From: Flavobacterium phycosphaerae
Lineage (GTDB): Bacteria > Bacteroidota > Bacteroidia > Flavobacteriales > Flavobacteriaceae
Reading direction: 5' to 3'
DNA length: 64,000 nt
Assembly (NCBI RefSeq): GCF_010119235.1
Contig: NZ_JAAATZ010000001.1
Location: forward strand, 154,501-218,500
The translations under genes were made by a program, and so were the position numbers. This document shows positions 23,106 through 50,900 of the stretch, piece after piece. The notes under the pieces were generated by a model. It worked only from the letters and a program-made list of their open reading frames with translations. It did no database searches and was not told where the DNA came from. Numbering within the stretch: the stretch's first letter is position 1; each line of letters opens with the position of its first letter.

Positions 23106-23190
23106 ATAGCCCTAGCCCGGATGGGAACGGCATCCTTTTGTGCCGGTGTTCGGCACAAAAGATATAGTGGACAGCCGGAAACAGCTCCTA
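23106..23190 (+). ncRNA. Flavo-1-like structured RNA / conserved intergenic element (candidate)
   Basis: Starts ATAGCCCTAGCCCGGATGGG and ends AGCCGGAAACAGCTCCT around a perfect 11-bp hairpin (cttttgtgccg 23135-23145, loop 23146-23150, cggcacaaaag 23151-23161). The framing segments resemble, from memory, the Flavo-1 RNA motif known in flavobacterial intergenic regions; I could not run the covariance model. It lies between the fasciclin gene and the terminator of the lipoprotein gene. Confidence 0.5.
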
Positions 23191-34913: not shown

Positions 34914-36473
34914 ATGAAAAAAAACATACTATTATTATTGACCGGGCTTAGTTTTTTAACGACACAAGCTCAAGAAGCCACTCAGCAAGATGCTCTAAGA
35001 TTTGCCGTTGAAAACATTACAGGAACCGCCCGATTCCGCTCTATGGGTGGAGCCTTTGGAGCATTAGGAGGCGATTTATCCGCTTTAAATCAAAACCCCG
35101 CCGGCTCTACTTTTTTTAACAACAATTATGCTACAGCAACATTAACAAGCTATAATGTTAAAAACAGTTCAAGTTATTTCGGAACCAAAACAAAAGAGAA
35201 TGACAATTCATTCGATTTAAATCAGGCTGGAGTTGTTTTCGTTTTTACTGATAACAATTCGAAAACCGATTGGAAAAAATTCACAATTGCAGTGAATTAT
35301 GAAAACAATAACAACTTCAATAACAGCATTTTTTCGGCAGGAATTAACCCCTACAATTCTATCAGCCAATATTTTGTAAACCAAGCAAATGCTTCAGGAG
35401 GAATTCCTTTAGAATTATTAAAAACTTTACCTAATGAAACCTATGCCGATTTATACAATTACTTGGGAGGTTTGCCGGATGGTGATTACCCTAATATAAA
35501 TGGCTTTCAGGCACAACAAGCTTTCTTTGGTTATCAAGGGTATGCTATCAATCCGGTTAGTGATACACCCGGAAACACTCTTTATACTTCCAATGTTCCT
35601 ACTTCCAATAATTATTATCAGGACTATTATGAGAACACAACCGGTTACAGTGGCAAAGGGACTATTAATTTTGCCACAGTTTATAAAAACATCTTATCGT
35701 TAGGAGTTAATTTAAATTTTCATTTTACTGATTTGACAAGAATTACTTCAGTCTATGAAGATTATAATATTAACGATTTAACAAAACTACAATCGCTTCA
35801 ATTTGATACCGAAACCCACACATTTGGTCAAGGATTTTCATTCAATCTTGGCGCCATAGTCAAAGCTACTAAAAGTTTGCGTTTGGGATTATCCTATGAA
35901 TCACCAACTTGGTACCGACTAGAAGACGAACAAAGACAAGTAATTTGCGCTGATTGTTATTCGCAAAACAATGCAGTTGTTGTAGATCCAAACACCATCA
36001 TGATTTATCCGGCCTATAAAATTCAAACACCCTACAAATGGACCGGAAGTGCTGCTTATATTTTTGGCAAAAAAGGGTTGTTGAGCGTTGATGTTTCAAC
36101 CAAAGATTACAGCACAACCCGATTCAAACCTAAATATGATTCAACCTATAAAATATTAAACGACCAAATGAAAAACAACCTTGATAAAGCTATTGAAGTT
36201 CGTATTGGTGGTGAGTATAAAATCAAACAACTAAGTTTACGAGGTGGATATCATTTTGATGAAAGTCCGTATAAAGTTGATGCCACTTTTGGTGACCTAA
36301 CTGGATATTCTACGGGGATTGGTTATAACTTCGGAGAAAGCCGATTGGATTTGGCTTACTCTTACGAACACAGAAAAATGAATCAAGCGTTAATTTCTTC
36401 CGGCATGATTGATCCGGCAAGAATAAGTCAATACAATAACAACGTAACCTTGAGTTATTCCGTTAATTTTTAA
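34914..36473 (+). CDS. OmpP1/FadL-like outer-membrane transport protein
   Basis: 519 aa. Signal peptide ending T-T-Q-A-Q. The start of the mature protein, with A-L-R-F-A-V-E-N and the R-S-M-G-G-A-F-G-A-L-G-G-D segment followed by L-N-Q-N-P-A-G, is characteristic of the Bacteroidota FadL-like group often annotated as hemin receptor. The C-terminal half is made of alternating beta-strands (Y-S-T-G-I-G-Y-N-F-G, L-D-L-A-Y-S-Y-E-H) and ends S-Y-S-V-N-F, a beta-barrel signature. Probably passage of hydrophobic compounds across the outer membrane. A terminator follows at 36495. Confidence 0.88.
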   Translation: MKKNILLLLTGLSFLTTQAQEATQQDALRFAVENITGTARFRSMGGAFGALGGDLSALNQNPAGSTFFNNNYATATLTSYNVKNSSSYFGTKTKENDNSFDLNQAGVVFVFTDNNSKTDWKKFTIAVNYENNNNFNNSIFSAGINPYNSISQYFVNQANASGGIPLELLKTLPNETYADLYNYLGGLPDGDYPNINGFQAQQAFFGYQGYAINPVSDTPGNTLYTSNVPTSNNYYQDYYENTTGYSGKGTINFATVYKNILSLGVNLNFHFTDLTRITSVYEDYNINDLTKLQSLQFDTETHTFGQGFSFNLGAIVKATKSLRLGLSYESPTWYRLEDEQRQVICADCYSQNNAVVVDPNTIMIYPAYKIQTPYKWTGSAAYIFGKKGLLSVDVSTKDYSTTRFKPKYDSTYKILNDQMKNNLDKAIEVRIGGEYKIKQLSLRGGYHFDESPYKVDATFGDLTGYSTGIGYNFGESRLDLAYSYEHRKMNQALISSGMIDPARISQYNNNVTLSYSVNF

Positions 36474-36494
36474 CAGAATACATCAGAAACAATT

Positions 36495-36525
36495 AAAACC
36501 ACTTTATACAAAGTGGTTTTTTTAT
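36495..36525 (+). terminator. Terminator of the FadL-like gene
   Basis: Stem aaaaccacttt/aaagtggtttt with a 4-nt loop and a T-rich tail. Confidence 0.75.
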
Positions 36526-36565
36526 TTTAACAGTCATGCAACCAATTTAATTTGAAATAAAAGCG

Positions 36566-36573
36566 TAATTTTG
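36566..36573 (+). promoter_or_regulatory. Promoter -7 box of rimO
   Basis: TAATTTTG, 18 nt before the ATG at 36592. It overlaps the upstream in-frame TTG at 36571, excluding it as start. Confidence 0.5.
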
Positions 36574-36591
36574 CACTCCAATTTTAAATCT

Positions 36592-37893
36592 ATGAGAACT
36601 AAGTCTTTAAAGAAAAATAAAATCAATGTCATCACGCTGGGATGCTCCAAAAACACTTACGACAGTGAAGTTTTGATGGGACAATTAAAGGCCAGCGGCA
36701 AAGACGTAGTACACGAACAGGAAGGAAACATAGTGGTTATCAACACTTGCGGTTTTATTGACAATGCCAAAGCTGAGTCGGTAAATACCATCTTGGAGTA
36801 TGCTGATAAAAAAGACAAAGGTCTGGTAGATAAAGTATTTGTGACCGGCTGTCTTTCCGAAAGATACCGTCCCGATTTAGAAAAAGAAATTCCCAATGTA
36901 GATCAATATTTCGGGACAACCGAATTACCATTGTTATTAAAAGCTCTTGGTGCCGATTATAAACATGAACTACTTGGCGAACGTTTGACTACTACTCCAA
37001 AAAACTATGCTTATCTAAAAATTGCCGAAGGCTGTGATCGTCCGTGCAGTTTTTGTGCTATTCCCATAATGCGTGGCAAGCACGTTTCCCAATCGATTGA
37101 AAAGTTGGTAAAAGAAGCTGAAGGATTAGCTAAAAACGGTGTAAAGGAACTAATTCTTATCGCTCAGGATTTGACTTATTATGGCTTGGATTTATACAAA
37201 AAAAGAAATCTGGCTGAACTGCTTGAAAACTTAGTAAAAGTAGAAGGCATTGAATGGATTCGATTGCATTACGCCTTCCCTACCGGTTTTCCGATGGATG
37301 TGTTGGAATTGATGAAACGCGAACCAAAAATTTGTAATTATATCGATATTCCGTTGCAACACATTTCAGACAACATTCTGAAATCAATGCGAAGAGGAAC
37401 GACCAAAGAAAAAACAACCAAACTATTACAAGATTTTCGTGCTGCCGTTCCGGGAATGACCATCAGAACCACTTTGATTGTTGGTTATCCGGGCGAAACT
37501 CAGGAAGATTTTGAAACCATGCGAGATTGGGTTCAGGAAATGAAATTTGAACGTTTAGGCTGTTTTACATATTCACATGAAGAAAACACTCACGCCTATT
37601 TATTGGAAGACGATGTTCCGGAAGAGGTAAAACAAGCTCGTGCTGCAGAAATCATGGATTTACAATCGCAAATTTCTTGGGATTTGAATCAAGAGAAAAT
37701 CGGACAAACCTTCAAATGCATCATCGACAGAAAAGAAGGCCAACATTTTATTGGAAGAACCGAATTTGACAGTCCGGATGTAGACAATGAAGTATTGATT
37801 GATGCTGCTAAATTCTATGTGAAAACAGGAGATTTTGTCAACGTAAAAATTATTGACGCTACCGAATTTGACCTTTACGGCGAACCAGTATAA
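36592..37893 (+). CDS. rimO: Ribosomal protein S12 methylthiotransferase RimO
   Basis: 433 aa from the ATG at 36592. N-terminal UPF0004 domain with Cys ligands in L-G-C-S-K-N, N-T-C-G-F and V-T-G-C-L-S for the auxiliary [4Fe-4S] cluster; central radical SAM domain with C-D-R-P-C-S-F-C (C-x3-C-x2-C) at about 155; C-terminal TRAM domain. It adds a methylthio group to the conserved Asp of ribosomal protein S12. Single gene ending at a strong bidirectional terminator. Confidence 0.96.
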   Translation: MRTKSLKKNKINVITLGCSKNTYDSEVLMGQLKASGKDVVHEQEGNIVVINTCGFIDNAKAESVNTILEYADKKDKGLVDKVFVTGCLSERYRPDLEKEIPNVDQYFGTTELPLLLKALGADYKHELLGERLTTTPKNYAYLKIAEGCDRPCSFCAIPIMRGKHVSQSIEKLVKEAEGLAKNGVKELILIAQDLTYYGLDLYKKRNLAELLENLVKVEGIEWIRLHYAFPTGFPMDVLELMKREPKICNYIDIPLQHISDNILKSMRRGTTKEKTTKLLQDFRAAVPGMTIRTTLIVGYPGETQEDFETMRDWVQEMKFERLGCFTYSHEENTHAYLLEDDVPEEVKQARAAEIMDLQSQISWDLNQEKIGQTFKCIIDRKEGQHFIGRTEFDSPDVDNEVLIDAAKFYVKTGDFVNVKIIDATEFDLYGEPV

Positions 37894-37925
37894 AAAAAGC
37901 TCCAATTGAATTGGAGCTTTTTTTT
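37892..37925. terminator. Bidirectional terminator between rimO and the porin gene
   Basis: Near-perfect palindrome agctccaatt-g-aattggagct (37899-37919) with A-run and T-run flanks, between convergent genes. Confidence 0.8.
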
Positions 37926-37928
37926 ATC

Positions 37929-38807
37929 TTAATAACTGAAACTAATTCCTGCTACTAGAAAATTTTTCCCGAATGTTTCTGTATTGTTCTTCGCTCCGTT
38001 GTGAATATAATTTAAAGATAATGGCATAGTGATTCCATTGCCCAAATCAAATTCCTTAGTGGCTTTGAGTCCCATATTCACAAAAGAAGCTTCATCATAA
38101 TCGGCATACGAATAGTACTCCGCTTTATTATTTAAAACCGCACCAATTACCGGCGCTAATTCAATTGAATTAAGGACTTTAGAAGCAGATTTTTCAAATA
38201 AAGTAAAAGTATAACCGAGCTCTAGATAAGTAGTGAAATTTTGTTTCGGATTTTCGCCATCAGCATCATAACGGTAATCATTTCCTGCAACTAAAGTACT
38301 AATCGTAGCATTAAAAGGAAATTTATAGCCTTCCGAAAAATCGAAGTACAACATAGCGTCTACGGTTTTGGTTCCGTCTTTGCCATAATTGAAGAAACCA
38401 TTATCAACTCCCTCTACTTTACTCACAGAGGGCCAATAATAATCCCAAAGTTGAAACTGTAAAAAATCATTAAGTTGGTAAGTGGCATAAAAATCGATTT
38501 CCTGATATCCTTTGTAAGCTGTTTCTCCATCCGGATAAAAATAATCTCCTTTGAAATTGGTTGTCGCCCAAAAACCTAACGAAAATTTAGGCGTTACAGC
38601 ATATTCAATCGTTGGTTGAACTGCTACATAATCACCACCCCAGCATTGTCCACGCCAAAGATAGCGACTGACAATATCAACATTTAAATCGAGTTTTTTT
38701 TCGTTTGCTATGCTTACCGTATCTTTTTCAGACTCGTTTTCCTGTGAAAAACCGATAGCTGAAACTATCATAAAAAGTAATACTAATAGCCTTTTATTAT
38801 GCTTCAT
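37929..38807 (-). CDS. Putative outer-membrane beta-barrel protein (TorF-like porin)
   Basis: 292 aa. Signal peptide ending A-I-G-F-S-Q, a short acidic linker, then a barrel starting L-N-V-D-I-V-S-R-Y-L-W-R-G-Q, with alternating aromatic strands and a terminal G-I-S-F-S-Y. The R-Y-x-W-R-G opening is shared by small Bacteroidota porin-like proteins annotated TorF-family. Its start overlaps the end of the hybrid kinase by 11 nt, so both are translated from one message; the porin may be functionally linked to that sensor. Confidence 0.82.
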   Translation of the reverse strand: MKHNKRLLVLLFMIVSAIGFSQENESEKDTVSIANEKKLDLNVDIVSRYLWRGQCWGGDYVAVQPTIEYAVTPKFSLGFWATTNFKGDYFYPDGETAYKGYQEIDFYATYQLNDFLQFQLWDYYWPSVSKVEGVDNGFFNYGKDGTKTVDAMLYFDFSEGYKFPFNATISTLVAGNDYRYDADGENPKQNFTTYLELGYTFTLFEKSASKVLNSIELAPVIGAVLNNKAEYYSYADYDEASFVNMGLKATKEFDLGNGITMPLSLNYIHNGAKNNTETFGKNFLVAGISFSY

Positions 38808-40905
38808 TTTCGTTTTTTTTACGCAAATATTTATCTACTAATTCAAATAAACGCTCTCTATTTAAAGGCTTTGTGATGTAATCGGTAAAACCGGCTTCTT
38901 CAATTTTAAGTTTGTCATCCGATGAAGAATAGGCCGTTTGAGCAATTATAGGCAAGGTAGGACGAATTGGTCTTATTTGTTCTAAAGCTTCGAAACCATT
39001 CATCAATGGCATTTTGATATCCATTAGCACCAAATCTATATTGGGATTATTGATGCAAATATCAACCGCTTCCTGCCCATTGATAGCTCGCAAAATTTTG
39101 AAATTTTTGTTCTGCATCATTTTTTGGAACAATAGGAAATTGATATTATCATCTTCGGCAATCAGGATAACTTCTTCTTCTGATTTGATTAACTCAATGT
39201 TGTTGATTGGTTTTACCACTATATGCTCTACTTTGGCATACTTCAACGGAATAGAGAAATAAAACGTAGAGCCTACACCAACTTTTGATTCCAGACTTAT
39301 TGTTCCTCCTAACAATTCGACATAAGCTTTTGAAATGGCTAAGCCCAATCCAAGACCTCCCACTTTGATAGAAATATCACTATCTACACGTTTAAATCGA
39401 TCGAAGATATTTTTGTGATTGTCTTCATCAATACCCAGTCCGGTATCTCTGACAGTGAAATTGATGAGGTCTCTTTTTTCGTCAATTTCGTAACCAAAAG
39501 TAACTTCTCCTTCATCGGTAAACTTGATGGCATTCGTCAATAAGTTAATAATAACCTGCTTCAATTTGATATCATCGGTTAGTATATTGAACTCAGCAGG
39601 AGTTTTACTTTTAATCAATTTAAAATCGATTGCCTTATTTTTAATCGTAATTTTTACGGTTTCATAAAGCTCATTGACGCAAGATTCTAAATTAACTACT
39701 GCAAAATTCGGCACAATCTGATTCGAATCAATTTTTGACATTTCAATCAAATCATCAATAATGGAAACCAGATTTTTTCCGCTTTTTTCGATAACGTTCA
39801 AATACTCCAGTTTTTCTGTTTCATTGATATCGGTATTGATAATGAGTTCCGTAAATCCATTGATAGCATTCATTGGGGTTCGAATCTCGTGTGATAAATT
39901 GGCCAAAAAGGATGACTTCAACCTATCGCTTTCCTCCGCTTTGATTTTAGCCTTTATCAACTCTATTTTTTGATTGCTGTTTTCTTCGAATAAATTACCA
40001 ATATAACTAAACTCCCCTGTGGTTTTCTTTAACTCACGTATGGCTTTTTTATTACCGGTTTCCAGCACTCTTCGTATTAAGTCTAAGGGATAATACACTA
40101 ATCTTCGGGTGTAAATCAAATTAACCAAAAGGTTTACAAAGAACGCCACTATGATAACATAGAGTAAGTTGGTAGTGTTTTCAAAATAGACTGCAAAATT
40201 TCTTTTAAAAGAAAGCTCTGCCACCAGTTGATTGTTGTAATCTTTCAGGGGACTTAACGATCTTATTTTGTTTTTTTCTTCGTTTAAATCTGCGTAATTG
40301 TCAAGAATTTCAATAGAAGAACTAGTTAATTTTTCTAAATTTTTGATGAATTTTTGATCTAATAATCTAACCACAAAGAAGTAGCCTGAAGCCTTTGTTT
40401 TATTTTTTAATGGATCATCTGAAGGGTGAATTGCGGCTCCGGTGACTTCAACAATTCCTTCCGGAATTTTCATATAGAATTTGTTGATGCCCACTTTGTT
40501 CAACAAGTCCATTTCAGCTTTAGGAATGAAGTCTACCGATTTTATTTTGGGTGTTTCCGTTCTGATTATAAATTTTTTATTCACATCGTATACACCCAGA
40601 TAGTCAGCCTCATAAATATTCAATTCATTACCTATCGATTCATTATACCATTTTACATTTCTATCTTTGATAAAGTTTACAAATTCATCCCAATTCGTAT
40701 CATTATTAATGGCTACCAATATAGGTTTTGCATTAACCTCCAACAACTTACTCACCTCATTATCAAAATGTTCAACAGAATTAGCATAGACTTGTTTTTC
40801 TGCTTTTTTGGTATAATAAAACAATGCAAAATAGAGTATTATAAAGAATATACTCGAGGAGATTATCAACCAAAGTATCTTAGGAAATGTCTTTTTTAAT
40901 GTCAT
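38797..40905 (-). CDS. Hybrid sensor histidine kinase/response regulator with CHASE4-like sensor
   Basis: 702 aa. Membrane helix at about 12-30, an extracytoplasmic CHASE4-like domain (about 35-240: E-H-F-D-N-E-V-S near its start and I-N-N-D-T-N-W-D-E-F), a second helix at about 245-265, HisKA with the histidine in N-L-S-H-E-I-R-T-P at about 338, HATPase_c (N-A-I-K-F, G-L-G-L-G-L-A-I-S), and a C-terminal receiver with phospho-Asp in L-V-L-M-D-I-K-M-P at about 627. There is no separate output regulator nearby; the neighbouring porin overlaps its stop. Confidence 0.93.
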   Translation of the reverse strand: MTLKKTFPKILWLIISSSIFFIILYFALFYYTKKAEKQVYANSVEHFDNEVSKLLEVNAKPILVAINNDTNWDEFVNFIKDRNVKWYNESIGNELNIYEADYLGVYDVNKKFIIRTETPKIKSVDFIPKAEMDLLNKVGINKFYMKIPEGIVEVTGAAIHPSDDPLKNKTKASGYFFVVRLLDQKFIKNLEKLTSSSIEILDNYADLNEEKNKIRSLSPLKDYNNQLVAELSFKRNFAVYFENTTNLLYVIIVAFFVNLLVNLIYTRRLVYYPLDLIRRVLETGNKKAIRELKKTTGEFSYIGNLFEENSNQKIELIKAKIKAEESDRLKSSFLANLSHEIRTPMNAINGFTELIINTDINETEKLEYLNVIEKSGKNLVSIIDDLIEMSKIDSNQIVPNFAVVNLESCVNELYETVKITIKNKAIDFKLIKSKTPAEFNILTDDIKLKQVIINLLTNAIKFTDEGEVTFGYEIDEKRDLINFTVRDTGLGIDEDNHKNIFDRFKRVDSDISIKVGGLGLGLAISKAYVELLGGTISLESKVGVGSTFYFSIPLKYAKVEHIVVKPINNIELIKSEEEVILIAEDDNINFLLFQKMMQNKNFKILRAINGQEAVDICINNPNIDLVLMDIKMPLMNGFEALEQIRPIRPTLPIIAQTAYSSSDDKLKIEEAGFTDYITKPLNRERLFELVDKYLRKKNENEA

Positions 40906-41088
40906 TTTTTCAGTATTCTGAATTTGATTACAATCTTTAAAAATAATCTAAATAAATATGCTGTGATCGAGAATATGCAAAAGAAATTAACAAGTTATCA
41001 AGGTTTTTGATCTAAATCTCTTCGTATTTCAATTTAAGGATTAAGGCATTTTTAATATTATTTAAGGGCGGATAGCAGATAAAAAAGC

Positions 41089-41096
41089 TACATTTG
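41089..41096 (+). promoter_or_regulatory. Promoter -7 box of apbE
   Basis: TACATTTG, 25 nt before the ATG at 41122. Confidence 0.5.
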
Positions 41097-41121
41097 TTTG
41101 ACCAATTTGAGCTCTTATTTT

Positions 41122-42117
41122 ATGAAAAAAATTATCATTATTGGCTTTCTTTTTTGTGTAGCATTGAGTTATGCACAAGAACCCGTTAAATTAGAAGGCT
41201 ATGCCCAAGGCACTACTTATCATATTACTTATTTTGATAAAAAAAACAGAAATTGGCAAACCCAAATCGATACGCTTTTAAGACAATTTGACTTGTCGGT
41301 TTCTACCTATATTCCCAATTCAATTATATCAAAAATAAACACTAATAAACCTAATGTAAAGGTCGATAAATATTTTATTACTTGTTTTAAAAAAGCCAAA
41401 GAAGTTTGGAAAAACACTCACGGTGCTTTCGACCCAACAGTGTATCCATTAGTCAACGCTTGGGGCTTCGGGCCGGGGAAAAAACAAAAAATAGAACAAT
41501 CCAAAATCGACAGTATGCTTCAATTTGTAGGCTTTGATTTGATTGCCTTAAAAGGAAAAAGAATCATTAAAAAAGATCCACGAGTAGCACTTGATTTTAA
41601 CGCTTTTGCCCAAGGCTATTCAGTAGATGTAGTCTCCGATTTTTTGAAATCAAAAGGAATTCGAAACTTTATTGTTGAAATTGGCGGTGAAGTTTATGCT
41701 CATGGTAAAAAACCGAATGGCGAAAACTGGAAAGTTGGCATTGAACAACCTTATGACAATAAAGAAAGTGAAAACCCTTATAACATTATTGCCAATCTTG
41801 AAAATTTGGCATTAGCTACTTCGGGAAATTACCGCCGATTTATTATAGAAAACGGAGTAAAATATGCTCACCACCTTGATCCGAAAACCGGTTATCCTAC
41901 CAAAAACAATTTACTCAGTGCTTCTATATTTTCAAAACAATGTATTGCCTCTGATGCAAATGCTACCGGGGTTTTGGTTATGGGATTGGATAAAGCGAAA
42001 GTATTTTTACAACAGCATCCGGAATTACAAGCTTATCTGATTTATTCAGATGAAAAAGGGAATTTCAAGACCTACAGCACTGATGGACTGTCTGCCATTT
42101 TAGAAAAAACAAAATAA
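41122..42117 (+). CDS. apbE: FAD:protein FMN transferase ApbE
   Basis: 331 aa from the ATG at 41122; the open frame begins at 41098, only 2 nt after the -7 box. Signal peptide ending A-L-S-Y-A-Q, so exported to the periplasm. ApbE features: Q-G-T-T-Y-H-I-T-Y start, S-T-Y-I-P-N-S-I-I-S-K-I-N, F-D-P-T-V-Y-P-L-V-N-A-W-G-F-G, D-F-N-A-F-A-Q-G-Y-S-V-D, and A-T-S-G-N-Y-R-R-F with H-H-L-D-P-K-T-G-Y-P. The enzyme attaches FMN through a phosphoester bond to Ser/Thr of exported redox proteins. It converges on an operon whose last gene encodes a DUF2271 protein with a matching acceptor motif. It could also serve Na+-NQR (NqrB/NqrC) encoded elsewhere. Confidence 0.95.
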   Translation: MKKIIIIGFLFCVALSYAQEPVKLEGYAQGTTYHITYFDKKNRNWQTQIDTLLRQFDLSVSTYIPNSIISKINTNKPNVKVDKYFITCFKKAKEVWKNTHGAFDPTVYPLVNAWGFGPGKKQKIEQSKIDSMLQFVGFDLIALKGKRIIKKDPRVALDFNAFAQGYSVDVVSDFLKSKGIRNFIVEIGGEVYAHGKKPNGENWKVGIEQPYDNKESENPYNIIANLENLALATSGNYRRFIIENGVKYAHHLDPKTGYPTKNNLLSASIFSKQCIASDANATGVLVMGLDKAKVFLQQHPELQAYLIYSDEKGNFKTYSTDGLSAILEKTK

Positions 42118-42118
42118 A

Positions 42119-42150
42119 AAAAGCACCTATTTTTGAATTTAGGTGCTTTT
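42119..42150. terminator. Bidirectional terminator between apbE and the DUF2271 operon
   Basis: Stem aaagcaccta/taggtgcttt with A- and T-runs at the two sides. Confidence 0.75.
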
Positions 42151-42171
42151 ACAGTTTAGTAAAAAATTGGG

Positions 42172-43029
42172 TTATTTACTAACTATGACTTCATAATTGG
42201 AAACGCCATTATCGTTTTGCAAACTAATGATATAATTACCCGCTGTCACATTAGATAAATCAACACTAAGCGTAGTATTGACAACCGATTGTTTCATTTC
42301 CTGTTGGTAAACTATTTTGCCCAACAAATCATATACCTTGATACTTTTCACTTCGTTTTTTGCATCAATATTAAAAATGCCTTTTGAAGGAACCGGGTAG
42401 ATAACAACTACCGGATTTTCTGTTAAATTTTGCTCTACCGACAAAGCCGTTGGTAACCAATGTAAGGTAACCGAATTAATGTAAGTATCTCCGGTTGGAG
42501 TAAGTGTTTGCTCGTTAGGACCCTTGGTAAAAGTAAAGCCAATTAACTCGTTGTGAATATTATTGGCACCATCATTCCAGGAACTTTCTACCCAAATTTT
42601 ATAGGTTCCATCTACAACGGTAGTTCCATTGGTAGCTCCTACTACATTTTTTCCGTCCCAGGTAATCGTTTTGGCACCAAAAGCAGTTGGGCTTGTGGAA
42701 GTAGTTCTTGTGGCTCCGGTAGAAGCATCAGTAGTATTACAAGTAGATCCTGTAGCTACTGTGGTGCTTGAACATCCTGATTTGCTGGCCCAAGTAGGCA
42801 AATGGTCATCTGTTGATGTAGAAGTGTAACGGCATTTTGTTTTAATAAATGTTCCGGTACCATTTTCAATCCAAACGGCGTAAACATTCTTAACTCCTTG
42901 ATTTAAGGAAGGGCTCGTAGGCTGTGGTTGAGTATAGGTAAATGTTAATGTCCCTGCAGTTTGTGCATTCATATTGGCACCAAAGCATAACATAACAACT
43001 AAACCTAAATTCAGTAGTACTCTTTTCAT
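42172..43029 (-). CDS. DUF2271 domain protein with type A T9SS sorting domain; candidate ApbE substrate
   Basis: 285 aa. Signal peptide ending N-M-N-A-Q. Residues of about 25-170 fit DUF2271: V-Y-A-V-W-I-E-N-G-T-G-T-F-I-K-T, the D-A-S-T-G-A-T-R box at 101-108, K-T-I-T-W-D-G-K-N and D-G-T-Y-K-I-W-V-E-S. The C-terminal 75 residues are a type A secretion-sorting domain (V-V-I-Y-P-V-P-S-K-G-I-F, I-K-V-Y-D-L-L-G-K, and T-A-G-N-Y-I-I-S-L), so export across the outer membrane by T9SS is predicted. The T-G-A-T box resembles the S/T-G-A-T flavinylation motif of NqrC/RnfG, making Thr107 a candidate FMN attachment site. Last gene of a five-gene operon. DUF2271 genes are often found with apbE; here apbE is the convergent neighbour. 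Confidence 0.85.
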   Translation of the reverse strand: MKRVLLNLGLVVMLCFGANMNAQTAGTLTFTYTQPQPTSPSLNQGVKNVYAVWIENGTGTFIKTKCRYTSTSTDDHLPTWASKSGCSSTTVATGSTCNTTDASTGATRTTSTSPTAFGAKTITWDGKNVVGATNGTTVVDGTYKIWVESSWNDGANNIHNELIGFTFTKGPNEQTLTPTGDTYINSVTLHWLPTALSVEQNLTENPVVVIYPVPSKGIFNIDAKNEVKSIKVYDLLGKIVYQQEMKQSVVNTTLSVDLSNVTAGNYIISLQNDNGVSNYEVIVSK

Positions 43030-43075
43030 TTTAATTGTGGTATTTATATTATTTGATTAGGTTGTTTACAGAAAA

Positions 43076-43609
43076 CTATTTGTTTTCCATGGGTAATTTT
43101 AAAGTAATTTTGGCGGTTTCCGCCAAGGTCTTTTTGGCCAGTGCAGGAACTGCTATCTTGTAGTCTGCTAACTTAATATTGAATCCTCCCGAAATAATCA
43201 GCTTATTGCCATCAGCAGCCAAGGTCATTTTGGTTTTAATTTTATTGGTAACTCCGTGAATGGTTAAGTCACCTTCAACATCATAATTTCCTGATTTACC
43301 ATCATAGCTCAACACTTTTCCTTTGAAACTGGCTTTTGGCAGCTTATCGCTTTCCATATAATTTTCATTGAAATGTTCTTCCATCAATGGCAATTTGAAT
43401 TTGAACGATTTGACCATAGCTTGTACCACTAAATCACCGGTAGTTTTATCAAAAATACTGGAAACTGTACTATTGGTTGCATAAACTAAATCGGTTGCAC
43501 CGGGAACGGTAGCGTCAAATTTTATTTCTCCTGAACGGGTTAGCATTTTTTGTGAAAAAACCATTCCACTCATTAAAAATGCTACTGCGATGATTATTAC
43601 TTTTTTCAT
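43076..43609 (-). CDS. YceI family periplasmic protein
   Basis: 177 aa. Signal peptide ending G-M-V-F-S-Q. The YceI lipocalin-like fold (about 20-175) is recognisable from G-E-I-K-F-D-A-T-V-P, the F-K-L-P-L-M-E-E-H-F-N-E-N-Y-M segment, K-A-S-F-K-G-K-V and the G-D-L-T-I-H-G-V-T-N-K-I central motif. Characterised members bind polyisoprenoid-type lipids such as quinone-like molecules. Its place between a haem lipoprotein and the DUF2271 gene suggests handling of a lipid redox partner, by inference. Confidence 0.93.
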   Translation of the reverse strand: MKKVIIIAVAFLMSGMVFSQKMLTRSGEIKFDATVPGATDLVYATNSTVSSIFDKTTGDLVVQAMVKSFKFKLPLMEEHFNENYMESDKLPKASFKGKVLSYDGKSGNYDVEGDLTIHGVTNKIKTKMTLAADGNKLIISGGFNIKLADYKIAVPALAKKTLAETAKITLKLPMENK

Positions 43610-43614
43610 AATTT

Positions 43615-43956
43615 TTATTCTTCTATTAAACCTTGGGCAATCCAGGCATTAAACATATCAATTTGTACTTGTGGTAATTTTCCGCTTTGCGGCATCAATG
43701 CACAGGAGTTTCCATCAAGACGACATGAAATTGACTCAGCGTAATCAACAACCTCTTGGTAAGTTTCTAATGGCGAACTCGATTCGGTACCATTTGTACT
43801 GTGGCAGGATACACATTGTGCACTCATTAAAGGTTTTATATTGGCTTTGTAGGTAGGATTTTCAACATACCCAAAAACATCGGCATAAGTATCGGATTCA
43901 CAAGACATAACAAATGAACCTAAGGCGATTAACAAAATAAATTTTACTGTTTTCAT
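43615..43956 (-). CDS. c-type cytochrome lipoprotein (single haem)
   Basis: 113 aa from the ATG at 43956; a longer reading would overlap the upstream gene and lacks a signal peptide at its start. Signal peptide with lipobox S-F-V-M-S-C (Cys at about 19). One haem-binding motif C-V-S-C-H at about 50-54, with a probable axial Met in A-L-M-P-Q-S-G-K-L-P. Two further Cys at about 76 and 83 may form a disulfide. It is a membrane-anchored electron carrier facing the periplasm or outside. Starts 4 nt after the DUF5777 stop, ends 5 nt before YceI. Confidence 0.9.
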   Translation of the reverse strand: MKTVKFILLIALGSFVMSCESDTYADVFGYVENPTYKANIKPLMSAQCVSCHSTNGTESSSPLETYQEVVDYAESISCRLDGNSCALMPQSGKLPQVQIDMFNAWIAQGLIEE

Positions 43957-43960
43957 AGTC

Positions 43961-44827
43961 TTAAAAAACTCTATATAAATTAAATCCAAAATAAACACTT
44001 CCGCCATTCCATTTTCCGGTAGCATTGGTAAAATAGGCAATATCATTCATTGGTTGTGCATTGGAGAAAACCAACTGAAATACGTGACCTCCGGTATCAA
44101 TATCAAAACCTGCTGTTAACGGATTGTGATAGTATTCATGCTCTTCCGGGTTTACACGAGCTGCATATTCTAAATTGAAACTAATGCGTTTTGATATTTT
44201 ACATCTACCACCCATACCTACTACAAATTGGTCTTTTTTATCTGTCCCGGGTTGTAAATCATAAAGGTTTTTGTGAATGTACACCGGAACAACTTCGAGT
44301 GAAATTGCATCAGAAAATTTTCTTGAAATCAACAATTGGGTTGAATAAGCTAAACGATTAGATTGTTTGAAATTAGGGTATAAAGCTTTATCGAACTTAG
44401 AACCGTTAACATCTAAAGTATTGTAGCCAACTATAGTAACCGGAAAACCATCTTCCATTTGATTGGCCAATCGGTATTTTAAACCGGCTTCAAAAGTTTT
44501 ATTATAAGTGTGACGAGCTAAACTGATGTTTAACCAATTGGTCACTCCATAAATCCCACCAATTTTAGTTAATGCGTTATCGAAACCGAAGAAATTATTA
44601 ATTCCTTCTTTTAAATCACCAAAGCGGTGAGACACTAAAAAATACCATTCGTTTTTGTTGGTCATTTTAGTTGACTGCATGCTACAAACTTGCAATCCTT
44701 TGAAAGCTGATGCGGTAATTTCTTTTTGTTTTGGCACCGAATCGAGTTCACTCATCAAATCTTGTGCACTTGCTGTGTGAAAAGCAATGAGCAAGAGCGC
44801 TGAACCCGCCATTTTACTTAATTTCAT
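43961..44827 (-). CDS. DUF5777 family beta-barrel outer-membrane protein
   Basis: 288 aa. Signal peptide ending H-T-A-S-A-Q; then A-F-K-G-L-Q-V-C-S-M-Q-S-T-K and H-R-F-G-D-L-K-E-G-I-N-N-F-F-G-F-D, typical of DUF5777. The rest alternates strands and ends S-V-Y-F-G-F-N-L-Y-R-V-F, an outer-membrane barrel end. In Bacteroidota, DUF5777 genes commonly sit with YceI and haem protein genes, as here (7 nt after the OB-fold gene, 4 nt before the cytochrome). It may be the outer-membrane conduit of the pathway; this is inferred. Confidence 0.88.
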   Translation of the reverse strand: MKLSKMAGSALLLIAFHTASAQDLMSELDSVPKQKEITASAFKGLQVCSMQSTKMTNKNEWYFLVSHRFGDLKEGINNFFGFDNALTKIGGIYGVTNWLNISLARHTYNKTFEAGLKYRLANQMEDGFPVTIVGYNTLDVNGSKFDKALYPNFKQSNRLAYSTQLLISRKFSDAISLEVVPVYIHKNLYDLQPGTDKKDQFVVGMGGRCKISKRISFNLEYAARVNPEEHEYYHNPLTAGFDIDTGGHVFQLVFSNAQPMNDIAYFTNATGKWNGGSVYFGFNLYRVF

Positions 44828-44834
44828 TTTGATT

Positions 44835-45233
44835 TTATTTATTGGTTGATATGTTACATTGATCTAGCCTCAGTTCTCCTAAAAGATCGTCAAAGCCAAC
44901 TACGCGACCTTTGACTGTTGCTTTTTGATTCACTTTGACAATGGTATTGGCTGTAGTAAAACTGCAATTTACTGTATTATCTAATATTACTTCAGTACCT
45001 TTTACCGAAGTTACCGTACCGGAAACCGCTATCGGTTTTTCTAAATATTTTTTATTAGAAGCCTCAACATTAGAAGTAAACTCGGCAACTATAGCGGCAG
45101 AAGTTACAGTAAAGGCAGTATCTTCAGCTTGTATGTCGCGTTTACCCCCGTGATACACATAATAGCGAACGGCAAAAAAACCAACGGCTAACACGACAAT
45201 TACAAAAATTAAAAACTTTATTTTTCTGCTCAT
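44835..45233 (-). CDS. Membrane-anchored OB-fold (tRNA_anti-like) protein
   Basis: 132 aa. One N-terminal membrane anchor (about 5-23), then an OUT-facing domain with K-P-I-A-V-S-G-T-V-T-S-V and K-V-N-Q-K-A-T-V-K-G-R-V-V-G-F-D-D-L-L-G-E-L, a pattern of the tRNA_anti-like OB fold (PF12869 type) common in Bacteroidota extracytoplasmic proteins. Two Cys (V-N-C-S and D-Q-C-N) could pair. First gene of the five-gene operon; precise role unknown. Confidence 0.82.
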   Translation of the reverse strand: MSRKIKFLIFVIVVLAVGFFAVRYYVYHGGKRDIQAEDTAFTVTSAAIVAEFTSNVEASNKKYLEKPIAVSGTVTSVKGTEVILDNTVNCSFTTANTIVKVNQKATVKGRVVGFDDLLGELRLDQCNISTNK

Positions 45234-45346
45234 AGGATACGTTCTTTAATGATGTTTATCGGCTAAAATACTATTTCAAATTCAATGTTGTGAAACAATA
45301 CTGTTAGTAAATCAATCTATATTGGCTTAAACATATAGTGTTAAAA

Positions 45347-45363
45347 AAACCCTACTCGAGTTT
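45347..45363 (-). terminator. Weak terminator of the radical SAM gene
   Basis: On the minus strand, aaactc/gggttt pair (one G-U) around a 5-nt loop, followed by a T-run. Confidence 0.4.
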
Positions 45364-45400
45364 TCTTAAGATTTCTTAAGCAAGATTATTTTTTAAAAAA

Positions 45401-47602
45401 CTACACAGTCAGCAAACCAAAATCGCGCAAAGTGACCATAGGCTTTGAATACCAAAACAATTCAAAATCATCAAACTGCGTTTCAAAATCGGCTTTAAGT
45501 TGGGCAAAAGTCTGGCCTTTTTGATTTGTTACCGATAGGGTATCTAAAATTGCTGCCAACCACTCGCCTTTCTCTTTTTCTACTGCGATTTCAATTTTTC
45601 CGGTATTGCTGTGAAAACTTAATTGCATCATTTCCCAGGAATGCCCTTTCTTGTATTTACTAAATATTTCGGTTTTTGGTTTTCCGCCCAGCCAAATAAT
45701 CTTGGCCGAAGGTTTTGTGGACAACAATTGTTCTTTCTCTAATGACGTAATTATAAAGTCAGCGGGAATGGTTGTTTTGGGGATTTTGAAATCAAACCAA
45801 TCCTGCAACTCATACTCGAAACCAATGCCATGCATGTAATTGAACAACGACTTCTTCAATCCGAAACTGAACTTATCGTGGTTAATACCTGTTTTGTCTT
45901 TAAACTGAATATCGTTATTGGCAAATGAAATTTCATTTAGCTCGGGAATTACTCCGAATGCTTCCGGAAACAAGCCTACCGGACTATGCGCTGTCATGGC
46001 AAACTGATGCCAAAAACCGGATTGGATTACACCCAATTCGAATAATTGGCGCACCATTTCTAAACTGTCTACCGTTTCCTTAATGGTTTGGGTTGGATAG
46101 CCATACATCAAATAGGCGTGTACCATGATACCACTTTCGGTGAAATTGCTGGTAACTTGAGCGACTTGTTCAACGGTTACGCCTTTTTTAATTAGCGCTA
46201 ACAATCGATCGGAAGCTACTTCTAACCCTCCTGAAACGGCTATACAGCCTGATGCTTTCAGTAATACACATAAATCGCTAGTAAAGCTTTTTTCGAAGCG
46301 AATGTTTGTCCACCAAGTTACGGCTAGGTTGCGACGGAGAATTTCCAACGCCAGTTCACGCATCAATGCCGGTGGGGCAGCTTCGTCTACAAAATGAAAA
46401 CCATTTTCGCCAGTTTGTGCTATTAGTTCTTCCATTCGATCTACTAGCAATTTTGCGGCTATTGGTTCGTATACTTTGATGTAATCGAGAGAAATGTCGC
46501 AGAATGTGCACTTTCCCCAATAGCAACCGTGTGCCATCGTTAGTTTGTTCCAACGGCCATCGCTCCACAAACTATGCATAGGGTTGGCGATTTCGATAAC
46601 TGATATGTATTTATCCAACAGCAAATCGGAATAATCAGGCGTGCCAACTTGAGATTGTTTGTAGTCGGGTTGGGTACTGTTGTTTTTATAAACTACTTCA
46701 TTGTTTTCGAGTAAAAAAGTTCTTTTGAGAGGCACTTCGACAAGCTCAGTGTGACAAACTGCTTCTAAAAGTAATTCAATTGGCAGTTCGCCATCGTCTA
46801 GTGTGATGAAATCAAAGAATTCGAATACTCTTTTATCTTTTAAATCACGGAGTTCCGTATTGGGAAAACCTCCTCCCATCGCTATTTTTGTGTTGGGATA
46901 GTGTTTTTTTATGAATTGGGCGATACGAAAAGCACTGTATAAGTTTCCGGGAAAGGGAACAGAAATGCAGACCAGTTTTGGTTGCACTTTGTTGAGTTTT
47001 TCTTCGAGGATTTTTAGTGTAATGGTATCGATATAAGTGGTTTCTTTTTGCAGATAGGCGTACATTTCGTCAAAAGAATTGGCGCTTCTTCCTAAGCGTT
47101 CGGCATAGCGGCTGAAGCCGAAATTTTCATCTATGCATTCAATAATAAAATCGGATAAATCTTCGAGGTAAAGTGTGGCTAAATGTTTGGCTTTATCCTG
47201 CATTCCCATAGAGCCGAATGCCCATTCCATATCATCTAACTGTTCGAAGCGGGCCGCTTGCGGGAGAAAATTACCGCTACAAATTTGACGAGCTAAAGTT
47301 TGATTTTTGCCTTGCAGAAATTTGATTACCGCTGCAATGGTTTTAATATATTCCTCTCGAAGCGAATAAATACGTTGCAGGTTTTGAGATGTTTCTAAGG
47401 TTCTTGAAGGAACCTTTGTGGCTTGGTTAAATATATTTTGCATCCCTTGCTTTGAAAAGAGCTCCAAAATTACTTCAATACCTAAATCCATTTGAAAAGC
47501 GGATTTGTTTTTGGTATTTAAAAAACCTTTCAAATAAGCCGTTGCGGGGTAAGGCGTATTGAGTTGGGTAAAAGGCGGCGTAAGGAGCAGGAGGTCTTTC
47601 AT
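45401..47602 (-). CDS. B12-binding-type radical SAM protein with C-x4-C-x2-C cluster motif
   Basis: 733 aa. The N-terminal third includes a cobalamin-binding-like region (V-C-I-S-V-P-F-P-G-N-L-Y-S-A, then I-A-M-G-G-G-F-P-N); the radical SAM core begins at M-A-H-G-C-Y-W-G-K-C-T-F-C (about 357). Cysteine spacing there is four then two residues, not the canonical three then two. Later core elements include V-S-G-G-L-E-V-A-S and Y-G-Y-P-T-Q. The C-terminus (about 590-733) is unassigned. Around residues 287-294 (C-H-T-E-L-V-E-V) it contains a widespread flavobacterial DNA repeat inserted in frame. Reaction unknown. It stands alone with a weak hairpin terminator. Confidence 0.88.
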   Translation of the reverse strand: MKDLLLLTPPFTQLNTPYPATAYLKGFLNTKNKSAFQMDLGIEVILELFSKQGMQNIFNQATKVPSRTLETSQNLQRIYSLREEYIKTIAAVIKFLQGKNQTLARQICSGNFLPQAARFEQLDDMEWAFGSMGMQDKAKHLATLYLEDLSDFIIECIDENFGFSRYAERLGRSANSFDEMYAYLQKETTYIDTITLKILEEKLNKVQPKLVCISVPFPGNLYSAFRIAQFIKKHYPNTKIAMGGGFPNTELRDLKDKRVFEFFDFITLDDGELPIELLLEAVCHTELVEVPLKRTFLLENNEVVYKNNSTQPDYKQSQVGTPDYSDLLLDKYISVIEIANPMHSLWSDGRWNKLTMAHGCYWGKCTFCDISLDYIKVYEPIAAKLLVDRMEELIAQTGENGFHFVDEAAPPALMRELALEILRRNLAVTWWTNIRFEKSFTSDLCVLLKASGCIAVSGGLEVASDRLLALIKKGVTVEQVAQVTSNFTESGIMVHAYLMYGYPTQTIKETVDSLEMVRQLFELGVIQSGFWHQFAMTAHSPVGLFPEAFGVIPELNEISFANNDIQFKDKTGINHDKFSFGLKKSLFNYMHGIGFEYELQDWFDFKIPKTTIPADFIITSLEKEQLLSTKPSAKIIWLGGKPKTEIFSKYKKGHSWEMMQLSFHSNTGKIEIAVEKEKGEWLAAILDTLSVTNQKGQTFAQLKADFETQFDDFELFWYSKPMVTLRDFGLLTV
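46733..46754. repeat. Short dispersed flavobacterial repeat inside the radical SAM gene
   Basis: CACTTCGACAAGCTCAGTGTG, a semi-palindromic sequence (CACTgagc...AAGTG ends on the other strand) that I recognise as very frequent in Flavobacteriaceae genomes, mostly between genes. Here it lies within a coding frame without interrupting it. Confidence 0.55.
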
Positions 47603-47657
47603 TTACTTTTATTGACAAACAAAATTACTCCATATTTTTAATGATGTCATGTATTTG

Positions 47658-47807
47658 TTAAATTTTCTCGGTAGAGAGGGTATTTATTTTGTCCATAATT
47701 TCAGTGGCAGCTTCAGTTTTATTGGTATAGTCAGCTGTGTAATCATTATTAACCAGACAAGAAAATGATTCAGCGATGCTTTTAATCTGAAGATACCTGC
47801 GAAGTAT
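47658..47807 (-). pseudogene. Coding-like remnant without start codon
   Basis: In the 382-bp gap between the radical SAM gene and the T9SS gene the minus strand holds a 49-codon open frame reading like real protein (I-A-E-S-F-S-C-L-V-N-N-D-Y-T-A-D-Y-T, then A-A-T-E-I-M-D-K-I-N-T-L) and ending at a stop at 47658-47660. A stop at 47808-47810 precedes it and there is no usable start. I take it as a gene fragment; family unknown. The rest of the gap holds the promoter at 47930-47959 and otherwise AT-rich sequence with nothing else I can name. Confidence 0.4.
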
Positions 47808-47929
47808 TTATTTAAAATTAATACTGATTCAAATTAAAAAATGTCTTGATAAAAAAGTTAGAATTACTGAGTTATTAACTTTATTGTAATTGGCTTTAAA
47901 AAAAAGACTTACATTTTTTTAATGTGTAC

Positions 47930-47959
47930 TTTGCCAATACAAGAACTTTCTTATATTTG
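47930..47959 (+). promoter_or_regulatory. Promoter of the SprB-repeat T9SS gene
   Basis: TTTG (47930-47933), 18 nt, TATATTTG (47952-47959), 25 nt before the GTG start at 47985. Full match to the flavobacterial consensus. Confidence 0.65.
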
Positions 47960-47984
47960 TTATCCCTCTTGAAATGTAAGCCTA

Positions 47985-50900
47985 GTGAAATCAATTATTT
48001 ATGTGTTTTGTTTGTTGTCATTTATCACTGTTTTTGGACAAAGTAAGTCGCAAAAACCAACACTTGTTTATGATAACACCAAAAAAATCGAAGACCGAAA
48101 TGGTCATTTGATAACCGATTCTATTCAGCGAAAAGTCTTTTTTGAGAACCAACAAAAGCAATTGGAGTTGCTTAGAAAAAACAGTGCTAAGTCGACTATG
48201 GCCTTACCAGCGGTTCCTATGTGTACTAATGGGAGTTTTGAAGAATTTGAAACCGTTTCAGCCAATACGGTTTTAAAAAATTATGAATACACTACCGGAG
48301 AACCTTTAAATCCGATGCAGTGTAAATCGGTTTCGGAATATGCCAATTTGAGAATTAAACAGTACAATCCTTCGGATTATGGATTAATGGCCTCCACAGT
48401 ACCTTCGAATTTTATTGACGAATATATTGGTAACATTAATGCATTTGATCAATATACGCTGAAAATTAATTACAAAGATTCTTCTCCTACGATGGGATTG
48501 ATTCAGACGAAGCGTTATAAAACTGACAATGAAACCATTTTTAAATTTAATTATAAAGCCGTTTTACAGAGTATTACTGAAAACGATCATGACAATGAAC
48601 AACCTTATTTTAAGGCTCGAATTATTAATAATGCAGGTGCTGTGGTTAGTGAATTTTGTTTGATTGGAAACCCGGCCGACTGTATTTTTACACAAGCCCC
48701 TACTTTGGAGGCCGGGAGCATCATTCTTTATACGCCTAATTGGCAATCAGGCCTTTTAGATATTTCGAGCATACCTAACAATCAGGAATTTACGGTTGAA
48801 TTTATGGCTGCCCGTTGTGGTTTAAACGGTCATTTTGGGTATGCTTATATTGATGATATTTGTTTGTTGCATTCGAATGAAAGTTTACAAGGAAGTATTG
48901 AATTAGACCCGTTGTACAAAATTTGTCCTACCCTACCGATTTCTGTTTGCGGTAGTTTTAGCTTGCCTAACTCGGGGGGAATTACGGCTACGATTACCAC
49001 TATTGATTTAAAAGTTTATGATGCTACTAATGCTGTTGTTTATACAACACAAACTCCGGCATCACTTAATTTGACGACTAAACGATTTTGTTTTGATTTG
49101 ACTGCGGCTAATTTACCCAATGTTCTTACCGGGAGTTATAATGTGAGTGCTACTATCAATTTTGGTATTGTACAGACCGATTGTCTTGGAACCAGCTTTG
49201 CCTCGGCTACGGATGATGATGCCAATCCGGGTTGGGACATTTGGTTTTTAAATTGTGTCAGCTGTAATCTTGATTTACAATCTACCAGTCTTACTGCTTG
49301 TGACACTAATCATGACGGGAAGGAATTTTTTAACCTTAGCAGCGTGGAAAGTATCATTACTACTCCGCAACCGGGATTGGTTTTTAGTTATTACACTACA
49401 TTGGCTAATGCTACCAATGATACAAATGCCATTGCCACTTTTGCTAATTACGAAAGTCCGACGACCACCATTTTTGTCCGCGCAACCTTAAGTCCGACTT
49501 GTTATAAAATAATTGCCATTAAGCTGATTGTTCGAAATCCAACGGCTTCTATAAGCGGGATCTTGAATGTTTGCAGTGGCAGTACTGTTTTGACGGCAAC
49601 CGCCGGGACAAGTTATTTGTGGGCCAACAGTTTAGGAACTTCGCAGAGTGTTACAGTTACCGCTACGGGAACCTATTCGGTTACTGTAACCGATAACAAT
49701 GGTTGTGTAGCTAATGGAACTGTTACTATTTTGAGTAATAATGTGGCGCCTTTACCTTCTATAGTGCTTACCCAACCTACTTGTTCTACCAGTACGGGCT
49801 CTATTCAGGTTACTTCACCTGCATCGGAATATAGTTATGATGGGGGTACTACTTGGGTTACCAACTCAACGATGAGCAATCTACCGTATGGTACCTATTT
49901 GGTCAAAGTGAAAACGGCTGCCGGTTGTATTTCGTATAGTTCGAGTGTAAACATTATTGCCTTTTTATCTTCGTTTCCTAATTTTTCGGCTGTTGACCCT
50001 ACGTTTTGCGGAGGATTAGGTAGTATAACCATAACGTCTCCAGCCGCTTTTTACAGTTTTGATGATGGCGTTACTTGGACTACTGATAATACGGCTACAG
50101 GATTACCCTCTGGGATTTATTTAATTCGAACGAAAGATGCGGCAGGCTGTATTTCTAATTTTAACAGTGTTACTTTGAGCAGTGAATTTTTAGATCCACC
50201 ACTGTATATTAAAGACAATCCCTTTTGTGGTAATCCCGGCAGTATTATCATTACAACACCGGCTGCTGAATACAGTTTTGATGGAGGGACTACCTGGCAA
50301 ACTTCAAATACATTGAGTAATTTAAGCAGTGGCAGTTATATTATTAAAATAAAAGACAGCCAAGGGTGTACATCGCCAAATGTTTATGTTTATTTAAACA
50401 ATTTAGAAAATAGTTATCCGCAGTATGCCTTAGACGATGCCGGTTGCGGTACTTATGCCACCATTACTATACTTACACCGGGTGATTTTTATAGTTTTGA
50501 CGGTGGAACTACATGGAGTACCAATCCTGTGCTGACCAATTTAAACGGTCCTGCATCTTTCAGTATAATGGTAAGAAAAGGAGCTGCCTGCAAATCGTAT
50601 TCGGCCAGTGTGTATGTAAACACTAAATTTTTACCAATTCCTTCTGTTACTGATTATGCGACCACTTTGTGTGACAGTTTGAATGACGGTTCGGAAAATG
50701 TAGATTTAACGCTTTACAATGCTAATCTTATTGCCAACTCAACCTCATACAATTACAGTTACTACACTAGTTTAACCGCGGCTCAAACCGGGAATTCTTC
50801 GGGGTTAATTACCAATTTTACTGCCTGTAATTTGAGTAACAGTAATAACAAGGTTTTTGTTCGAATCACTTCGACCGACAGTTGTTCGGCGGTGGCTGTA

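Follow-up and report, generated by a model that had tools for sequence, protein, structure and literature searches.

Background

Flavinylation of proteins outside the cytosol is already known, as is the combination of DUF2271 proteins with ApbE, which transfers flavin mononucleotide (FMN) from flavin adenine dinucleotide (FAD) to protein (PMC8238504, PMC11334425), and Meheust (2021, PMC8238504) showed that ApbE modifies its cognate DUF2271 protein within an [S/T]GA[S/T] motif and that no flavin is attached once the threonine has been replaced. The present study concerns a six-gene locus at positions 41122-45233 of a 64,000-nucleotide stretch of Flavobacterium phycosphaerae DNA (hereafter the window), in which apbE faces an operon encoding an OB-fold protein, a DUF5777 barrel, a one-haem lipoprotein, a YceI protein and a DUF2271-like protein that ends in a sorting domain of the type 9 secretion system (T9SS). 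An earlier note on this DNA had proposed that these parts make an electron route from the envelope to a flavoprotein outside the cell, and its author knew of no described pathway of that composition. In our judgment it is rather probable that a surface flavoprotein is here served by a DUF5777/cytochrome/YceI module whose partners are exchangeable.

Several described systems share components with this locus. The PepSY-like/DUF2271/DUF4198/ApbE clusters also combine ApbE with a DUF2271-type protein that carries [S/T]GA[S/T] (PMC8238504). Unlike those clusters, the locus described here has no PepSY_TM, its distant DUF2271 relative bears a T9SS tail and lies beside genes for DUF5777, YceI and a c-type lipoprotein, and its ApbE is of another branch. 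The ApbE proteins that accompany NqrC/RnfG in Nqr/Rnf systems form a neighbouring lineage in our tree, but the F. phycosphaerae genome has neither FMN_bind nor NqrB/RnfD matches (0 of each). Within the same genus there are also Flavobacteriaceae clusters that we take, from the starts of their sequences, to be of a thioredoxin-like/ApbE/DUF3570 type and that join ApbE to an envelope flavoprotein; the locus studied here differs from them in having no DUF3570 match and an ApbE of a different branch. With porin-cytochrome conduits of the MtrCAB type the common ground is a proposed barrel and cytochrome at the outer membrane, and the differences are a single haem where those conduits have many, a barrel with 12 strands in its model and a flavoprotein as the terminal unit. 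A YceI lipocalin adjoins a cytochrome in the BcnA/LcoA system (PMC9113575) as well, but there the cytochrome is a b561, for which the operon proteins give no match; a c-type lipoprotein, a barrel and a predicted exported flavoprotein are found instead. Finally, the extracytoplasmic proteins Cbp2D and Cbp2E of Cellvibrio bring together a YceI-like domain and a c-type cytochrome that has one haem (PMC8981238, PMC12542752), whereas here the two are encoded by separate genes, with no carbohydrate-binding module and with a predicted flavinylated partner.

No published description of this gene set was found in the open-access literature, although the cluster may stand unnamed in the supplementary tables of Meheust. 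DUF5777 itself was not found in the open-access literature searched, a scope that leaves most subscription papers outside, and an open-access search for a flavinylated T9SS-exported protein returned no paper on the subject, the sole co-mention being Meheust in a reference list. If our reading is true, T9SS can export cofactor-loaded flavoproteins, the Bacteroidota possess a redox route at the outer membrane that differs from the multihaem conduits, and DUF5777 gains a first testable role.

The ApbE and DUF2271-like proteins

The six genes were confirmed at their expected positions, with apbE on the plus strand convergent with five minus-strand genes in the order OB-fold, DUF5777, one-haem lipoprotein, YceI and DUF2271-like; the genes and strands given in the earlier note, and its gaps of 7, 4, 5 and 46 nt, were all borne out by open reading frames (ORFs), Pfam matches and the sequence. 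The apbE gene (41122-42117) encodes an FAD:protein FMN transferase (PF02424, 276 bits against a cut-off of 25.6, E 4e-82) with an N-terminal signal peptide, as judged by eye. The mechanical ORF starts are 41098 (a TTG) for apbE and 44046 for the cytochrome gene, and the starts adopted, 41122 and 43956, suit signal peptides better, again by eye. The DUF2271-like gene (42172-43029, minus strand) encodes a predicted secreted protein and flavinylation substrate with a T9SS type A sorting domain (Por_Secre_tail, 48.7 bits; PF18962 at residues 210-279, 42193-42402, minus strand), and it is called "DUF2271-like" because its PF10029 score of 21.5 bits lies under the gathering cut-off of 27.3.

The alignment places the DASTGAT motif of this protein (residues 101-107; 42709-42729, minus strand) with its TGAT, residues 104-107, in register with the canonical DUF2271 site, and Thr107 is the predicted FMN acceptor. 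Relatives were collected in two sets, 42 "named loci" found by searching across GTDB for two short peptide patterns and a genus set of 31 loci from 28 other Flavobacterium genomes, with 13 records common to both. The 42-row alignment of DUF2271-like proteins from the named loci (A4, window included) leaves out five of 46 named-locus sequences, four of them long and one partial. PF10029 is matched at E<=0.01 by 33 of its 42 rows (window included; best E 8.8e-11), and a profile comparison of A4 with eight canonical Flavobacteriaceae-type DUF2271 proteins gave E 9.9e-6 and a probability of 82, with DASTGAT over DAKTGAS; the same comparison with ten close relatives only was weak (E 0.041, probability 1.3), and the motif aligned again. 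At the aligned site, which is the basis of all motif counts (a looser regular expression over the first 200 residues was set aside), 37 of the 42 A4 rows have [ST]GA[ST], as do 22 of the 33 sequences in the genus set when the window is counted. The acceptor position in the genus set is Thr in 31 of 33 sequences and Ser in the other two, and since one or the other is kept throughout, the lineages without the motif would either use a variant site or have a changed system. One motif-less protein of the genus set (L160) has a TGAT four residues upstream of the aligned site. Nine motif blocks of ApbE show few changes across 24 homologues of neighbouring loci, and they are largely intact beside DUF2271-like proteins that lack the motif. 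Two such motif-less proteins lie beside apbE frames of 556-562 residues with an N-terminal stretch that by eye is TPR-like (L169:3-1673 and L170:4997-6685).

The genome, which is 99.8% complete, has a single apbE (PF02424) match and, genome-wide, no match to FMN_bind, NqrB/RnfD, DUF3570, PepSY_TM or PF10029 (the last at E<=0.001), which makes the DUF2271-like protein the only recognised substrate, although substrates of a type not yet described may also exist. A role for this apbE as an Nqr accessory is ruled out by the same lack of NqrB/RnfD and FMN_bind matches. ApbE-type flavinylation of the DUF2271-like protein is supported, at the level of sequence, by the motif, the single apbE, the absence of another recognised substrate and the conserved adjacency of the two genes that is described below.

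A T9SS tail is present in 42 of 42 A4 rows. The genome has a SprA_N match and hence a T9SS, and the window protein has the features by which T9SS type A cargo is recognised; structure searches with this protein were dominated by its tail. In four loci (L204, L206, L211 and L214) the DUF2271-like domain starts long repeat proteins of 520-1255 residues, possibly long surface flavoproteins, and the motif is kept in those of L204, L211 and L214 and absent from the domain of the L206 protein.

Conservation of the grouping

Judged by these two proteins, the nearest named relative is F. silvisoli, whose DUF2271-like protein matches at 92% over 170 residues and whose ApbE matches at 87%. Within the genus a DUF2271-like protein was found in 29 of 299 genomes, this one included, and 28 of those 29 have apbE, as compared to 237 of 299 overall; the exception (G313) is a fragmented assembly. 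The earlier note had raised the prospect of an apbE that always travels with nqr genes, which is not what is seen: apart from the lack of such matches here, FMN_bind occurs in only one (G269) of the 29 genomes with a DUF2271-like protein, against 31 of 299 overall.

Of the 31 genus-set loci, 24 have apbE as the immediate neighbour of the DUF2271-like gene, 21 contain the module (at contig ends, at least the cytochrome and YceI) with varying outer neighbours, and 15 show the full order OB-DUF5777-cytochrome-YceI-DUF2271 with a convergent apbE. In the named loci apbE is adjacent in 26 of 42, and the module or the cytochrome and YceI in 16 of 42. Where apbE and the DUF2271-like gene are convergent, 46-66 nt lie between them in 20 of 25 pairs. 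Other arrangements of the same genes also exist: in Kaistella gelatinilytica (L208) all six, apbE included, are in line; in F. aquatile (L196) the DUF2271-like gene is in front of OB; and cytochrome, YceI and DUF5777 genes come before the DUF2271-like gene in L211 and after it in L214, where the DUF2271-like proteins have 1063 and 874 residues, respectively, and keep the motif together with what looks by eye like a T9SS tail. Because the same order recurs in other species among other outer neighbours, the six-gene arrangement is not a product of chance, and the grouping extends past this genome in both sets of loci and in several gene orders, so that the lack of conservation which the earlier note would have taken as a refutation is not what is observed. 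F. alvei (L200:3479-5128, minus strand) and one metagenome-assembled genome (MAG; L202) have two additional genes for cytochrome-like lipoproteins, divergent from the operon.

Of the 27 ApbE proteins from these loci, a tree of 44 ApbEs places 25 in a single supported clade (99/90), and the full 27 cluster together with six ApbEs of Nqr type and apart from those of PepSY and DUF3570 type. The type names are our presumption from sequence starts, and the fetched stretches of L182 and L188, which supply two of the Nqr-type rows, showed no Nqr genes.

The DUF5777 module

The other four proteins of the operon have counterparts well beyond the genus. The DUF5777 protein (43961-44827, minus strand; PF19089, 270.6 bits against a cut-off of 23.1, E 1.3e-80) is an outer-membrane beta-barrel with a predicted structure of 12 strands at moderate confidence (mean predicted local distance difference test score 72.0), for which Foldseek gave matches to OmpG, FapF and NanC; a sequence search of the PDB with the DUF5777 alignment gave no match up to E 1. 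Two of its histidines are nearly invariant (His67 in 78 of 79 and His248 in 77 of 79 sequences) and could hold a cofactor or metal. The cytochrome is a c-type lipoprotein (43615-43956, minus strand) with a FVMSC lipobox and a single CVSCH haem motif (43801-43815, minus strand), both read from the sequence. Its best Pfam match is PccH, at 23.8 bits against a cut-off of 24.4, with no cytochrome family over the cut-off, and by eye there is one CxxCH among the operon proteins and thus no multihaem cytochrome in the operon. In 76 cytochrome homologues of the phylum sample the haem motif is CX2CH in 50 and CX4CH in 26. The YceI lipocalin-like protein (43076-43609, minus strand; PF04264, 57.6 bits, E 2.4e-15) has a signal peptide, and the OB-fold (tRNA_anti-like) protein (44835-45233, minus strand; PF12869, 43.6 bits, E 2.9e-11) has an N-terminal hydrophobic segment that would serve as a membrane anchor, with Cys90 conserved in 25 and Cys126 in 23 of 27 sequences.

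A sample of 148 Bacteroidota genomes gave DUF5777 matches in 62, from which 78 loci besides the window were taken; seven of the stretches are shortened by contig ends and four weak matches (E 7e-6 to 2.9e-4) were left out. With the window included, directons around DUF5777 contain the cytochrome in 62, YceI in 58 and OB in 15 of 79 cases, and DUF5777, cytochrome and YceI, with OB less often, are therefore a module found across the Bacteroidota. The earlier note had looked to DUF5777 neighbourhoods across the phylum for co-occurrence with apbE and DUF2271; in this sample neither apbE nor a DUF2271-like gene lies within up to 6 kb of any of the 78 other loci, and DUF5777 as a marker of flavinylation is ruled out. 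The flavoprotein is thus one possible partner of the module and not a defining part of it. Of the electron route that had been proposed, the grouping and the predicted flavinylation of the DUF2271-like protein have gained support.

A further redox protein occurs in the directon in 20 of the 78 other loci. DOMON-like proteins with a T9SS tail are found in L038, L092, L095 and L098 (a DOMON match of 24.2 bits, below the cut-off of 32.7), cupredoxins with a tail in L086 and L089 and without one in L044, Rieske proteins in L058, L072, L083, L097 and L100, EB_dh in L049, L052, L054, L062 and L066, and iron-sulphur (Fe-S) or NrfD proteins in L049, L054, L055, L057 and L063, the partners having been scanned with Pfam in L095, L086, L089, L044, L100, L072, L066 and L063 and assigned elsewhere by sequence cluster. 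The edges of the directons are loose, for many of the genes among 30 scanned neighbours are unrelated, such as regulators, transporters, a SecY and a lyase. T9SS tails are more common inside the DUF5777 directons than outside them in the same stretches (10/175 as compared to 7/491, p 0.004), with the proviso that the loci are not independent and the genomes are related. The five loci with Fe-S and NrfD-type proteins also have cytochromes, and L049 and L054 an EB_dh-like protein as well, which makes them a second type of DUF5777 cluster, reminiscent of a respiratory complex that includes the barrel. Temptin_C proteins bearing a T9SS tail are encoded inside the directons of L068, L070 and L071 (one scanned, the others assigned by cluster).

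A proposed electron route and its alternatives

From the genes, the motif, their conservation and the lack of another known substrate, we infer the following scheme. In the periplasm, ApbE would load the DUF2271-like protein with FMN at Thr107, after which T9SS would bring this protein, folded and with its flavin in place, to the cell surface. The barrel, the one-haem lipoprotein, YceI and the OB-fold protein would together make up a conserved electron-transfer module of the outer envelope, in which YceI may be the carrier of a quinone or other isoprenoid, because YceI lipocalins bind ubiquinone-8 and related isoprenoids (PMC9113575). Electrons would be relayed one at a time by the lipoprotein, and at the barrel in the outer membrane they would be handed to the exported redox protein or received from it. 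As to direction, outward flow to an extracellular acceptor (iron, quinones or a surface enzyme) is a first guess, and inward flow is possible. The presence of the module beside other exported redox proteins, DOMON-like and cupredoxin, in some relatives implies that the flavoprotein would be one exchangeable head among several. A bolder generalization, to which we attach clearly less belief, is that DUF5777, the one-haem lipoprotein and YceI form a widespread Bacteroidota electron platform at the outer membrane that has no multihaem wire, possibly has a His-held cofactor, and uses T9SS-exported heads bearing covalent FMN, DOMON-like haem or blue copper.

A number of observations weigh against this scheme. 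The flavoprotein pair is missing from all 78 other DUF5777 loci, as noted above, and 58 of those loci have no recognised additional redox partner. F. aquatile (L196) and one MAG (L202) have no apbE next door to their DUF2271-like genes, the [ST]GA[ST] motif is missing in five of 42 A4 rows and in 11 of 33 genus-set sequences, and in nine of those 11 apbE is still adjacent. The residues from the lipobox cysteine of the cytochrome, CESDTY, include two acidic ones in positions +2 to +6 and fall short of a clear SDDFE-like signal for export to the surface. A Pfam scan recognised no inner-membrane electron donor among the operon proteins, the predicted 12-strand barrel is narrow, and a membrane cannot be bridged by the one-haem lipoprotein alone.

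The alternative that survives best, which we nevertheless regard as unlikely, is iron handling, in which the FMN protein at the surface would reduce ferric iron so that it can be taken up. Such a role has been proposed for PepSY-DUF2271-ApbE clusters, which have been linked to iron (PMC8238504). An extracytoplasmic function (ECF) sigma factor/FecR/TonB-type receptor trio, whole or in part within the stretch, accompanies seven of the 42 named loci (checked fully with Pfam in L196 and L208, for the receptor only in L198, and by length and sequence start in the other four), and the same trio is found beside the DUF5777 operons of L038 and L096. This trio is, however, a general regulator in the Bacteroidota with no specificity for iron, and none was seen around the window operon among the ORFs of 36000-50000, nine of whose proteins were scanned with Pfam.

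We give a somewhat smaller chance to an envelope antioxidant system of the kind proposed for BcnA/LcoA, in which quinone-loaded YceI would quench lipid radicals and be recycled by the cytochrome and flavoprotein. The binding of ubiquinone-8 by YceI and the link between BcnA and lipid-peroxyl detoxification (PMC9113575) are consistent with it, but none of the nine scanned window proteins, those of the operon among them, matches cytochrome b561, and membrane repair needs no T9SS-exported partner. The ankyrin proteins that adjoin some DUF5777 operons (identified by a scan in L038 and by cluster in L095) would be in keeping with peroxide defence.

Equally improbable in our estimation is that apbE and its flavoprotein on the one hand, and the DUF5777 module on the other, are two neighbouring units that share a site without a joint function. 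The pair occurs without the module in L153, L154 and L156-L159, and the module without the pair in the 78 other loci of the phylum sample; against this stands the fact that the two units meet in several gene orders, and in K. gelatinilytica as six genes in line. Electron supply to an extracellular enzyme, for example in oxidative attack on polysaccharides as suggested for Cbp2D/Cbp2E, where YceI and a one-haem cytochrome are similarly paired in secreted proteins (PMC8981238, PMC12542752), is the least credible of the four; none of the nine scanned window proteins is a polysaccharide enzyme or has the carbohydrate-binding modules of the Cellvibrio proteins.

Other features of the window

Between apbE and the operon, positions 42119-42150 fold into a hairpin on both strands (-17 kcal/mol with a z of -3.66 on the plus strand, and -13 kcal/mol with a z of -3.90 on the minus strand), a probable two-way terminator by its folding that could end both convergent transcripts; it is absent from the output of a consensus terminator scan. 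Upstream of the operon lies a gene for a B12-binding radical SAM protein (45401-47602, minus strand), which has the same position in several relatives. The neighbours of apbE on its other side are a CHASE4 hybrid histidine kinase (38797-40905, minus strand) and a TorF-like porin (37929-38807, minus strand), and genes of 702 and 292 codons occupy the position of this kinase and porin in loci L191 and L193 too. More distant from the locus, a Flavo-1 RNA is found at 23110-23185 on the plus strand (76.5 bits).

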